The notes under the pieces were generated by a model. The model did not search any database, had not been told where the DNA came from, and saw only the letters and a program-made list of their open reading frames with translations. From Sulfurospirillum sp. (GTDB lineage Bacteria > Campylobacterota > Campylobacteria > Campylobacterales > Sulfurospirillaceae), in the NCBI GenBank assembly GCA_014859685.1, contig JACUTU010000004.1, forward strand, positions 124,001 to 188,000: DNA of 64,000 nt, given 5' to 3'. Shown piece by piece: positions 16,164-52,343 of this stretch; position 1 is the first letter of the stretch; every line of letters starts with the position of its first letter. Both the position numbers and the translations under genes were made by a program.

Positions 16164-16216
16164 TGATTAACTGACCTTACGCACTTTTTCAAAAAATGTG
16201 GAAGGTCAGTAATTAA
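16164..16216. repeat. MITE derivative, copy C (39-bp body)
   Basis: CTGACCTTACGCAC... to ...GGTCAG (16171-16209) is almost entirely inverted repeat and shares its first 30 bp with the 141-bp copies at 24.2 and 51.6 kb. It is flanked by TGATTAA (16164-16170) and TAATTAA (16210-16216), a 7-bp target duplication with one mismatch. The interior of the longer copies is missing. It lies just past the 3' end of the lactate permease gene and may serve as its terminator. Confidence 0.55.
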
Positions 16217-17934: not shown

Positions 17935-18054
17935 GTAAGTCTCCTTTTTGAAATTTTCAATGTCCACATCATAAACGATAGAAATGACAAAAGTATGATC
18001 TAAAATTGCTTACATGTAATGTTCATCTACAAGATGAGCCATAGGAAATTAGTG

Positions 18055-24186: not shown

Positions 24187-24343
24187 AATGAATTACTGAT
24201 CTTACGAATTTTTGCAAAAAAGTTCGTAAATACCTCTCATTCTCTCGAAAAGTACTCTTTTCGTAGCTTAGGAGGCTGTAGGAACATTTGTCTCTCCCAC
24301 TAAAACGAATGCGCTCGTTTTAGTGGGTAACATCAATGAATTA
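24187..24343. repeat. MITE-like element, copy A (141-bp body)
   Basis: AATGAATTA occurs at 24187-24195 and 24335-24343, a 7-9 bp target duplication. The body begins CTGATCTTACG and ends in GTAACATCAA, imperfect inverted termini. Inside are three hairpins: TTACGAA/TTCGTAA, CGAAAAG/CTTTTCG and CCACTAAAACGA/TCGTTTTAGTGG (12 bp). The body is nearly collinear with copy B at 51571-51727. No reading frame is carried. The right end lies 4 bp before the ribosome site of the flavoprotein gene, so its transcript probably starts in or runs through the element. Confidence 0.7.
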
Positions 24344-24358
24344 TACAAAGGATACTCC

Positions 24359-27205
24359 ATGAACGCACTAAGCGGAAAATACCTAGAATTTTATGGTGAG
24401 CTTTTAAAACTTATTCCTCAAAAAAGAGTCTTTACGGATCCATTACATACTTTAGCATATGGCACTGACGCTTCTTTTTACAGACTTATTCCAAAAGTCG
24501 TCATTTGGGCAGAAGATGCAAATGAGGTAAGTGAGATCTTGAAACTCTCAGATAAACTCTCTTTGCCAGTTGTGTTTAGAGCTGCTGGTACTTCGCTTTC
24601 TGGTCAAGCTATCACTGATTCTATTTTGATCGTAACTTCGCGTGATTGGAGAAAAGTTGAAATTAGCAAAGATGCTTCTTTTGTTACAATGGAGCCATCT
24701 GTAATTGGTGCTGATGTAAATGCAAAATTGCTCCCACTTGGAAGAAAAATCGGTCCTGATCCAGCAAGTATAGGTGCTGCGATGATCGCTGGAATTGCGG
24801 CTAACAATGCTAGTGGTATGTGTTGTGGGACTTCTGATAACTCCTATAAAACACTTAAATTTATGAAGATTATTTTTCATGATGGCACTGAACTTGATAC
24901 AGCTGATAAAAAAAGTATTGAAAATTTTGCACAAACGCATGGAAGCATACTTGAGGGTATAAAATCTTTGATGCACAAAGTGCGTGAAAATAAAACTTTG
25001 CACGATAAAATCGTAAGAAAATTTAAGATTAAAAATACTTGTGGATATTCGCTCAACGCGCTAGTGGATTTTGATGATCCTATTGAGGTTTTACAACATC
25101 TTATCATTGGTAGCGAGGGAACACTCGGATTTATCAAAGATATTACTTTTGCAACCGTAGCCGAATATAAAGATAAAGCCAGTTCTTTGATGCTCTTTAA
25201 AAATGTAAAAGATGCGTGTGATGCTGTTGCAACCTTGCGAACAAAATGCCGTACAAGAATGGCAAATGCAGAAGTTGATGCTGCTGAAATCATGGATAGA
25301 GCAGCGCTTAAAAGTGTTCAAGACCTTGAGGGAATGCCAGATTTTCTCAAAACTCTTGGCGACACAGTCACAGCTGTACTTGTAGAAACAAGAGCTCCAA
25401 GTCCAGAAATACTTGATAGCAATATAGAAAAAATTCTCAAAGAATTAGCATATATAGAACCAGAAATGCCACTACACTTTACAAAAGTTGTTGCAGAATA
25501 TACAAAATATTGGAAAATTAGAAAAGGTCTTTTTCCAGCAGTTGGTGCCGCTAGAGAAACAGGTACTACATGTATAATCGAAGATGTTGCTTATCCTATC
25601 GAATCGCTTGCAGATGGTACGCTTGAGTTGCAAGAGTTATTCAAAAAATATGGTTATAACGAAGCTATTATTTTTGGCCATTCACTTGATGGTAATCTTC
25701 ACTTTGTATTTAATCAAAAATTTGACAACCCAAAAGAGATTGAAAGATATGAAAATTTTATGGCAGAAATCGCAAGTCAAGTAGCAACAAAATACAAAGG
25801 AAGCTTAAAAGCTGAACATGGTACTGGTCGTAATATGGCTCCATTTGTAGCTCTTGAATGGGGTGAAGATGCGTATGAGCTTATGAAAGAGATCAAGCAT
25901 ATTTTTGATCCTCGAGGACTTATCAATCCAGGTGTTATTCTCAATGTTGACCCAAAAGTGCATTTAAAAAATTTCAAACCAATGCCAAAAACCGATGATT
26001 TTATTGATAAATGTATAGAATGCGGTTTTTGTGAGCCAAAATGTCCATCAAATGCACTCACGCTCACCCCAAGACAAAGAATTGTTTCTAATCGTTATAT
26101 GACAACGCTAAAAGAAAATAACAATATGCAAACTTATGAAGCAGTCAAAAAGCTCTATCAATATGATGGAATTGAAACTTGTGCCACATGTTCATTATGT
26201 TCACTCACCTGTCCAGTTGGCATAGACACAGGAGCATTGACAAAAAAAATTAGATCACACCAAATCACACCATCACAGCATAAAACAGCTTCTTTCATAG
26301 TAAACAACTATGCGGGGCTTTTGGGCTTTGGTAGTGGCGTATTGAGTGTTGTAAAAACAATTACAAATATCATTCCACACAGTGCGGTTCAAGCCATGAG
26401 TTCGGGAGTGACTGCATTAAGTGGTGGAAAACTTCCAATGTGGACTGCAAGTCTCCCCTCTGGTCATACTTTTAAAGATACTAGAACAAAATTTGGACGC
26501 GATGAAAAAGTTGTTTATTTCTCCTCTTGTCTCAACCGAACTATGGGCAATCCACGACCTGTAAGTGGTGAAAAAGAGTTAGATACGCTAATTATCGAAA
26601 TTTTGGAAAAAGCTGGCTATGAAGTGATCATACCAAATAATCTCAAACCACTTTGCTGCGGTATGCCATTTTCAAGCAAGGGATATATCGAAGAGGGTCA
26701 CAAAAAATCACACGAACTTGAAATTGCACTCAATGAAGCTAGCGAAAATGGGAAATATCCAGTAATTTGTGATATGAGTTCTTGCTCAAAAACAATGGCA
26801 ACATATTTTGAAAGCGGGCTTAAAGTGTATGATCCGGTTGAATTTATCCACGATATACTCTTAAAACGCATCAAAATAAAACAGATAAATGAACCAATCG
26901 TGATCCACACAATTTGTAGCACAAGAAAAGCGGGACTTGCTGAAAAATTGGAAGCTATTGCAAAAATGTGTAGTTCAAATGTTATCATTCCACCAGATGT
27001 TAGCTGTTGCGGATTTGCAGGTGATCGAGGTTTTAATTACCCTGAACTCAATCACTCAGCCTTAAGACATCTTAATGAATCTATACCAAAAGGTACAAAA
27101 CTTGCATTTTCAACAGGCAAGCCTTGCGAAATTGGACTCAGTGAAAATACAGGTTTAGGCTACCGTTCAATCTACTATTTGCTCGATCTTTGTATGGAAC
27201 AATAA
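24359..27205 (+). CDS. FAD/Fe-S D-lactate dehydrogenase-like oxidoreductase
   Basis: A 948-residue fusion. Residues about 30-230 form an FAD_binding_4 domain (VVFRAAGTSLSGQA, IGADVNAKLLPLGRKIGPDPAS), then the FAD-oxidase C-terminal domain with AEHGTGRNMAP. Two 4Fe-4S motifs follow (CIECGFCEPKCP and CATCSLCSLTCPVG), then two cysteine-rich CCG domains (LCCGMPF, SCCGFAGDRG). The layout matches the quinone-linked D-lactate dehydrogenases (Dld-II; Cj1585c of C. jejuni is similar). AAAGGA supports the ATG at 24359. It is a peripheral inner-membrane enzyme that would feed lactate electrons to menaquinone. Glycolate or 2-hydroxyglutarate are other possible substrates. Confidence 0.85.
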   Translation: MNALSGKYLEFYGELLKLIPQKRVFTDPLHTLAYGTDASFYRLIPKVVIWAEDANEVSEILKLSDKLSLPVVFRAAGTSLSGQAITDSILIVTSRDWRKVEISKDASFVTMEPSVIGADVNAKLLPLGRKIGPDPASIGAAMIAGIAANNASGMCCGTSDNSYKTLKFMKIIFHDGTELDTADKKSIENFAQTHGSILEGIKSLMHKVRENKTLHDKIVRKFKIKNTCGYSLNALVDFDDPIEVLQHLIIGSEGTLGFIKDITFATVAEYKDKASSLMLFKNVKDACDAVATLRTKCRTRMANAEVDAAEIMDRAALKSVQDLEGMPDFLKTLGDTVTAVLVETRAPSPEILDSNIEKILKELAYIEPEMPLHFTKVVAEYTKYWKIRKGLFPAVGAARETGTTCIIEDVAYPIESLADGTLELQELFKKYGYNEAIIFGHSLDGNLHFVFNQKFDNPKEIERYENFMAEIASQVATKYKGSLKAEHGTGRNMAPFVALEWGEDAYELMKEIKHIFDPRGLINPGVILNVDPKVHLKNFKPMPKTDDFIDKCIECGFCEPKCPSNALTLTPRQRIVSNRYMTTLKENNNMQTYEAVKKLYQYDGIETCATCSLCSLTCPVGIDTGALTKKIRSHQITPSQHKTASFIVNNYAGLLGFGSGVLSVVKTITNIIPHSAVQAMSSGVTALSGGKLPMWTASLPSGHTFKDTRTKFGRDEKVVYFSSCLNRTMGNPRPVSGEKELDTLIIEILEKAGYEVIIPNNLKPLCCGMPFSSKGYIEEGHKKSHELEIALNEASENGKYPVICDMSSCSKTMATYFESGLKVYDPVEFIHDILLKRIKIKQINEPIVIHTICSTRKAGLAEKLEAIAKMCSSNVIIPPDVSCCGFAGDRGFNYPELNHSALRHLNESIPKGTKLAFSTGKPCEIGLSENTGLGYRSIYYLLDLCMEQ

Positions 27206-51570: not shown

Positions 51571-51727
51571 TAAGTATTTGACCTTACGCACTTTTGTAAA
51601 AAAGTTCGTAAATACCTCTCATTTTCTCGAAAAGTACCCTTTTTGTAGCTTTAGGGGGTTGTAGAGACATTTGTCCTTGCCACTAAAACAGACGAGTTCG
51701 TTTGGTGCGCAACATCAGTAAGTATTT
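51571..51727. repeat. MITE-like element, copy B (141-bp body)
   Basis: TAAGTATTT flanks the element at 51571-51579 and 51719-51727, a 7-9 bp target duplication. The body starts (T)TGACCTTACGCAC and ends in GTGCGCAACATCAG, an inverted terminus matching at 10 of 14 positions. The interior is nearly collinear with copy A (shared runs AAAAAAGTTCGTAAATACC and TCTCGAAAAGTAC) but its hairpins have more mismatches. It lies 22 bp upstream of the efp -10. Confidence 0.7.
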
Positions 51728-51779: not shown

Positions 51780-52343
51780 ATGGCAAGCATTAGCATGGGC
51801 GATTTGAAAAAAGGCCTCAAGATAGAACTTGCGGGTGTACCGTATAAAATAGTTGAGTATCAACATGTAAAACCTGGGAAGGGTGCCGCATTTGTGCGTG
51901 TAAAAATCAAATCGTATGCAAATGGCAAACTCATAGAGAAAACTTTTCACGCGGGTGATAAGTGTGAAACGCCAGATTTGCAAGACAAAGTGATGCAATT
52001 TTTATATGATGATGGAGAGTTTTTACAGTTTATGGATTCTGAAACTTATGACCAAATAGGTCTTACTCGTGATCAAGTTGGTGAAGCTGCAAATTGGATC
52101 ATAGACGGTATGAGCGTGGATATGCTTTTTCATAATGGTAAACCAATAGGCGTAGATGCGCCAGCAGTAGTTGAGCTTAAAATCGTAGAAACTCCGCCAA
52201 ATTTCAAAGGCGACTCACAAGGTGGTAAAAAACCAGCTACGCTAGAGAGCGGCGCTGTTGTACAGATTCCTTTTCATGTGCTTGAGGGCGATGTGATTAA
52301 GGTGGATACAATCAAGGGCGAATACATAGAAAAAGTAAAATAA
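51780..52343 (+). CDS. efp: Elongation factor P
   Basis: A 187-residue three-barrel protein with the domain I loop [12 protein letters not shown], whose lysine in PGKG is the modified residue of lysine-type EF-P, and the C-terminal barrel with [10 protein letters not shown]-like [14 protein letters not shown]. It relieves ribosome stalling at proline runs. TAGGAG lies before the ATG. The modification genes are not in this window. Confidence 0.95.

Follow-up and report, generated by a model that had tools for sequence, protein, structure and literature searches.

The DNA analysed here, a stretch of 64,000 nucleotides from Sulfurospirillum sp. (G000:C21:124001-188000, hereafter the window), belongs to a genome of 2.1 Mb in 23 contigs and carries a gene-less repeat of 141 bp, which raises the questions of what kind of element this is, what moved it, and why its interior has been kept. 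The initial annotation had proposed a new MITE-like family with two 141-bp copies and one 39-bp derivative in the window. All three copies were found, with refined boundaries. The 141-bp repeat is a MITE. Its family is new but of a familiar kind, and what sets it apart is a structured interior that is conserved to an unusual degree. With a probability of about 93%, it is the MITE of an insertion sequence (IS) of the ISAba11 group (IS701 family) that makes 7-bp target duplications.

Copies, termini and insertion sites

Copy 1 (24196..24336, plus strand), which was recognized by its terminal repeats and hairpin folding, ends in CTGATCTTACGAAT and CATCAA (3 and 2 mismatches to the consensus, respectively) and is flanked by the duplication TGAATTA at 24189..24195 and 24337..24343; the gene downstream starts with an ATG at 24359. 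Copy 2 (51578..51718, plus strand), recognized by its terminal repeats, ends in TTGACCTTACGCAC and GTGCGCAACATCAG with one mismatch each, has the duplication TAAGTAT at 51571..51577 and 51719..51725, and lies upstream of efp, which starts at 51780. The flanking direct repeats had been taken as 9 bp; they consist of a 7-bp duplication and two terminal bases that match by chance. The 39-bp minimal derivative (16171..16209, plus strand) is flanked by two convergent ORFs. Its 7-bp duplication is present but imperfect (TGATTAA at 16164..16170, TAATTAA at 16210-16216), and it does not retain one of each terminus but is a near-perfect palindrome of two left-type ends. The genome has four other 40-bp copies, two of them with exact 7-bp duplications (C5:6908 and C7:13135).

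A genome-wide search, which the initial annotation had recommended, recovered many further copies outside the window through BLAST and a terminal-repeat scan. BLAST gave 66 pieces at ~40 loci, and 108 genome sites match the terminal pattern CTGAYVTTACGCAC when up to one mismatch is allowed, vs. one for the reversed control. As in other MITEs, the terminal inverted repeats are defined, here as 14-bp ends (left, CTGACCTTACGCAC; right, GTGCGTAACATCAG, which inverted reads CTGATGTTACGCAC), and the elements are short, at 39-161 bp below the limit of ~600 bp, and without a transposase gene. At least 46 elements were delimited in this genome, from stretches around the copies and from contig starts, and they fall into length classes of 39-40 (n = 5), 65-79, 90 (n = 10), 100-108, 140-143 (n = 15, the main class) and 149-161 bp. 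Among 44 elements collected blind to their flanks, 18 have an exact 7-bp duplication and none has one of 8 bp or more, where shuffled flanks give a mean of 0.68 and a maximum of 4. Exact 7-bp duplications also flank 14 of 20 elements in a second, closed genome (G027) and 9 of 34 in other genomes, each far above shuffles. This constant length is likewise typical of a MITE; about half of the copies have no recognizable duplication. Insertion favors targets resembling TTATTAA. Since copies of many short classes have duplications of their own (e.g., GTATGAA at C15:194553, ATTTTAA at C5:3340, TTAAGAT at C5:6908), deletion derivatives must have moved once they had formed, and nothing beyond the termini seems to be needed for movement.

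Conserved presence at the same sites in distant relatives would speak against a mobile element. The copy upstream of efp is absent from all five relatives compared (0/5) and from a sixth, more distant one, and the efp upstream sequence (ATATACG..ATGTATAAA) is recognizable in several relatives without the copy. Neither of two congeners (G001 and G002) has a credible BLAST match to the family (best E 0.17), and G002 has no covariance-model match either. These absences, together with the target duplications and with nested insertions, refute the view that the copies are intergenic repeats passed on by vertical descent and multiplied by recombination instead of transposition, which is very improbable even though some copies lack a duplication and the distribution spans an order.

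The initial annotation had also suggested that the copies near the two downstream genes may supply or block promoters, which finds partial support. Upon removal of copy 1 and one duplication, the sequence reads TTAAAAT-29 nt-ATG, and G001 has TTAAAAT-27 nt-ATG; this similar spacing places copy 1 between an AT-rich, promoter-like box, assigned by inspection only, and the ribosome-binding site. The efp copy, on the other hand, lies upstream of a -10-like box. By a simple ORF test, 40 of 46 copies in this genome lie outside long ORFs, and 89 elements in other genomes occupy convergent gaps more often than divergent ones (28 vs. 11). The strand of the element relative to co-directional flanking genes has no significant bias (18 versus 29, p = 0.14). 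The gap preference fits tolerated insertion downstream of genes and does not suggest that the elements generally act as promoters, though the two genes in the window may be affected locally. In another genus (G008, L318:1300-1500), an independent family member lies upstream of a homolog of the gene at 24359-27205 of the window.

A second, separate repeat was observed in the window. The 10-bp palindrome TTACATGTAA occurs 11 times (at 18010, 22471, 28931, 34351, 35985, 37387, 49235, 53999, 55509, 55871 and 56632; 0.13 expected) and 446 times in the genome, vs. one for the reversed control. It exceeds 1000 occurrences in several genomes of one genus of the same family (g2), is nearly absent from genus g4 and from outside the family, and resembles the highly iterated palindrome HIP1 of cyanobacteria.

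The partner insertion sequence

Elements without a gene need a transposase from elsewhere, as the initial annotation had pointed out in proposing a search for an IS with the same termini. Such an IS exists in other genomes, with remnants in this one: an IS701-family element of the ISAba11 group (NF049921), ~1.1 kb long, with identical termini and 7-bp duplications. A family search with NF049921 across 249 Campylobacterales genomes gave matches in 33, two of them above the cut-off. For instance, a 1102-bp IS in another Campylobacterales genome (L267 in G219) has CTGACCTTACGCAC at both ends and encodes a transposase of 350 aa with the Pfam domains DDE_5 and DDE_Tnp_1, which scores 329.8 bits against the NF049921 cut-off of 250 and is thereby assigned to the ISAba11 group of IS701. 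This copy is intact, as are those on plasmids of Polaromonas, Acinetobacter and Cyanobacterium. Both ends read CTGATGTTACGCA or CTGACCTTACGCA in the plasmid copies from Polaromonas, Acinetobacter schindleri, Thiothrix, Stanieria and Cyanobacterium, and three of these, two from Polaromonas and one from Acinetobacter schindleri, have exact 7-bp duplications (TTACTAA, TATTTAA and TTATTTA). The homology between MITE and IS is confined to the 13-15 bp ends. For ISAba11 itself, duplications of 5 bp have been reported (PMC7885321), and the partner ISs make 7-bp ones instead, so they represent a 7-bp subset of the ISAba11 group.

In the Sulfurospirillum genome, a search for long terminal-repeat pairs over the collected loci led to a remnant at C7:330.6 kb, which has an IS-like left end, the start of a transposase (MKTDYIELYTDYLISNN), a frame disruption and the peptide SHDQITRFLS, and is interrupted by a MITE. 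Its fragment matches NF049921 weakly (E 3e-4) and also matches plasmid transposases, one of which is annotated 'group ISAba11'. A second remnant, at C15:194.5 kb, has a 90-bp MITE nested inside it. One contig (G000:C18:6339-6390, L110), which also has an IS-like 3' end, breaks off 37 bases into a terminus similar to the partner's right end, and an intact copy may lie in the assembly gap there. No intact IS was seen in the assembled genome, and the closed genome G027 has no detectable IS copy though it contains the structured MITE; the current activity of the IS is therefore unproven. In G027, no terminal-repeat pairs at IS spacing were found among the sites listed, and a 43-aa query assembled from two reading frames linked by an X matched nothing in 43 genomes of the family except its own. 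PF01609 transposases were rejected as the partner, as none of five matches in 12 genomes has MITE termini.

Further elements with similar organization were observed. Another MITE in G027 is 269 bp long; it shares the termini and has 7-bp duplications too, encloses an unrelated GC-rich interior, and occurs in both orientations (L126-L133 and L141; e.g., L127:263-531). The Sulfurospirillum genome contains a different DDE_Tnp_1 IS (L124:1268-2204, G000:C23) with the terminal repeats AACTTTCGCACCTAA; in many Campylobacterales, IS701/IS4-like transposases lie between ends that resemble these (CTCAACTTTCGCACAT).

In terms of sequence, the link to this transposase rests on the shared termini, the equal length of duplication, the homology restricted to the ends, the remnants, and amplified derivatives down to 40 bp. 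An ISAba11-group DDE transposase would recognize the 14-bp MITE termini and insert the element at AT-rich targets similar to TTATTAA, with duplication of 7 bp; such an IS, formerly active in this genome, presumably moved the copies. A REP/REPIN-type element, for which single-stranded hairpins are the substrate of a RAYT (Y1) transposase, would also be small, palindromic, mostly intergenic and present in many copies. However, RAYT and IS200-type elements are not known to leave a target duplication. Exact 7-bp duplications are abundant here, and the ends are shared with an IS of the DDE type, which refutes membership in the REP/RAYT (IS200/IS605-like) elements and leaves that origin scarcely credible.

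A conserved interior and its spread

When GTDB species genomes were scanned for exact matches, at least 118 stretches came up, and the 80 listed are all from Campylobacterota (Sulfurimonas, Sulfuricurvum, Sulfurovum, Hydrogenimonas and others). A covariance model, with no more than 12 matches counted per genome, matched 49 of 249 genomes of the order, in 18 of 73 genera, with a patchy distribution. Sulfurimonas sp. KA11 has a copy with 98.6% identity to the consensus from the Sulfurospirillum genome, and the latter genome's own copies fall below this value, with 76-97% identity to the same consensus. The patchiness and the 98.6% identity between families imply horizontal spread. The element would have passed horizontally among Campylobacterota, and a plasmid is one possible vehicle, as a Sulfuricurvum kujiense plasmid has a partial match to the MITE; no match was found in viral contigs (exact pattern) or in phages (blastn). 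No prior description of the element in Sulfurimonas or Epsilonproteobacteria was found among the open papers searched.

In other genera the interior is conserved as a hairpin (H2), a linker (AGCTTTAGGGGGNTGNAGGG) and two further hairpins (H3 and H4). The linker AGCTTTAGGGGG is invariant across families, and it persists with the strongly covarying H2 and H4 and the conserved H3 in the 18 of 73 genera sampled. Because MAFFT misaligns H2, pairing was assessed on arms whose anchors lie for the most part outside the stems. H4 pairs in 93.2% of cells (44 distinct arm pairs) vs. 62% with shuffled arms (maximum 73.5% over 5000 shuffles), and H2 in 84.5% vs. 62%, figures that overstate independence since the arm shuffles ignore relatedness. 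H3 varies too little in sequence to show covariation. RNAalifold independently recovers H3 and H4, with both sides of four H4 pairs changed in 13-22 of 48 sequences. The plainest evidence for pairing is the contrast in sequence between clades (e.g., CACTAAAAC..GTTTTAGTG, CAAAGCTTG..CAAGCTTTG and CAAATTGCGGG..CCCGGAATTTG). In line with the earlier statement that the elements fold into hairpins, six of seven copies have folding z-scores of -4.6 to -9 against shuffles (-6.4 for copy 1 as RNA); the efp copy reaches only -1.6. Among non-Watson-Crick cells, G-U is not clearly favored over A-C, so RNA and single-stranded DNA are indistinguishable.

This pairing, the invariant linker, the folding of six of seven copies, and one window copy placed for transcription as a 5' leader would agree with a repeat that serves the host chiefly as a structured RNA, or as a signal for RNA processing, and is merely carried by the transposase. 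Several observations make this improbable. A structured RNA gene had been named as a finding that would overturn the MITE interpretation, and Rfam 15 gave no match in the window and only sub-threshold ones for the element itself, so that no known RNA family was found. The absence of the family from congeners argues against an essential host role, the strand bias relative to co-directional flanking genes is not significant, and ten 90-bp copies have spread despite missing H3 and most of H4. The G-U count does not favor RNA over single-stranded DNA.

Under the preferred interpretation, a MITE mobilized by the 7-bp ISAba11-group transposase, the interior is not derived from the known IS and was putatively kept, most likely, since its single-stranded fold favors the persistence or mobility of the element; alternatively, the fold may limit the harm done by transcription of the element. 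Rather tentatively, and with the odds against it, the linker AGCTTTAGGGGG and H2-H4 could constitute a functional nucleic-acid device behind the success of the MITE. For instance, an RNA or single-stranded DNA fold may insulate neighboring genes, or it may recruit a host factor or the transposase. If true, this would explain why the interior has lasted longer than the intact copies of the IS and why it shows covariation in many genera.

Relation to known systems

The family is a large, taxonomically wide bacterial MITE in which the interior, and not just the ends, is structurally conserved over many genera, and it is paired with a defined transposase family. It accounts for dozens of intergenic repeats, offers a marker for horizontal exchange among Campylobacterota, and makes two questions testable: the role of a MITE interior, and the persistence of gene-less elements in genomes where searches reveal no intact transposase.

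ERIC, BOX and Correia/NEMIS elements are ~100-160 bp long, intergenic and folded, with deletion derivatives, as is the case here. They differ, in a comparison made by description, in their bacterial hosts and in their termini. ISs of the IS701 family/ISAba11 group (NF049921) have identical 13-14 bp termini (CTGACCTTACGCA and CTGATGTTACGCA) and, in several members, 7-bp duplications; unlike the MITE, they are ~1.1 kb long and carry a transposase, and only the termini are common to both. REP sequences, for which the RepRanger survey lists Sulfurimonas gotlandica (PMC12306157), are palindromic, lie between genes and occur in the same phylum, but lack flanking target duplications. A similar pairing of MITE and IS is described for Acinetobacter: MITEAba12, gene-less, 113 bp long and spread across a bacterial family, resembles its IS at the termini only and shares its duplication length (PMC6382973). 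Its partner, on the other hand, is ISAba12, with 9-bp duplications, and the available part of that account does not describe a covarying multi-hairpin interior (PMC6382973) like the one that the family described here has kept.
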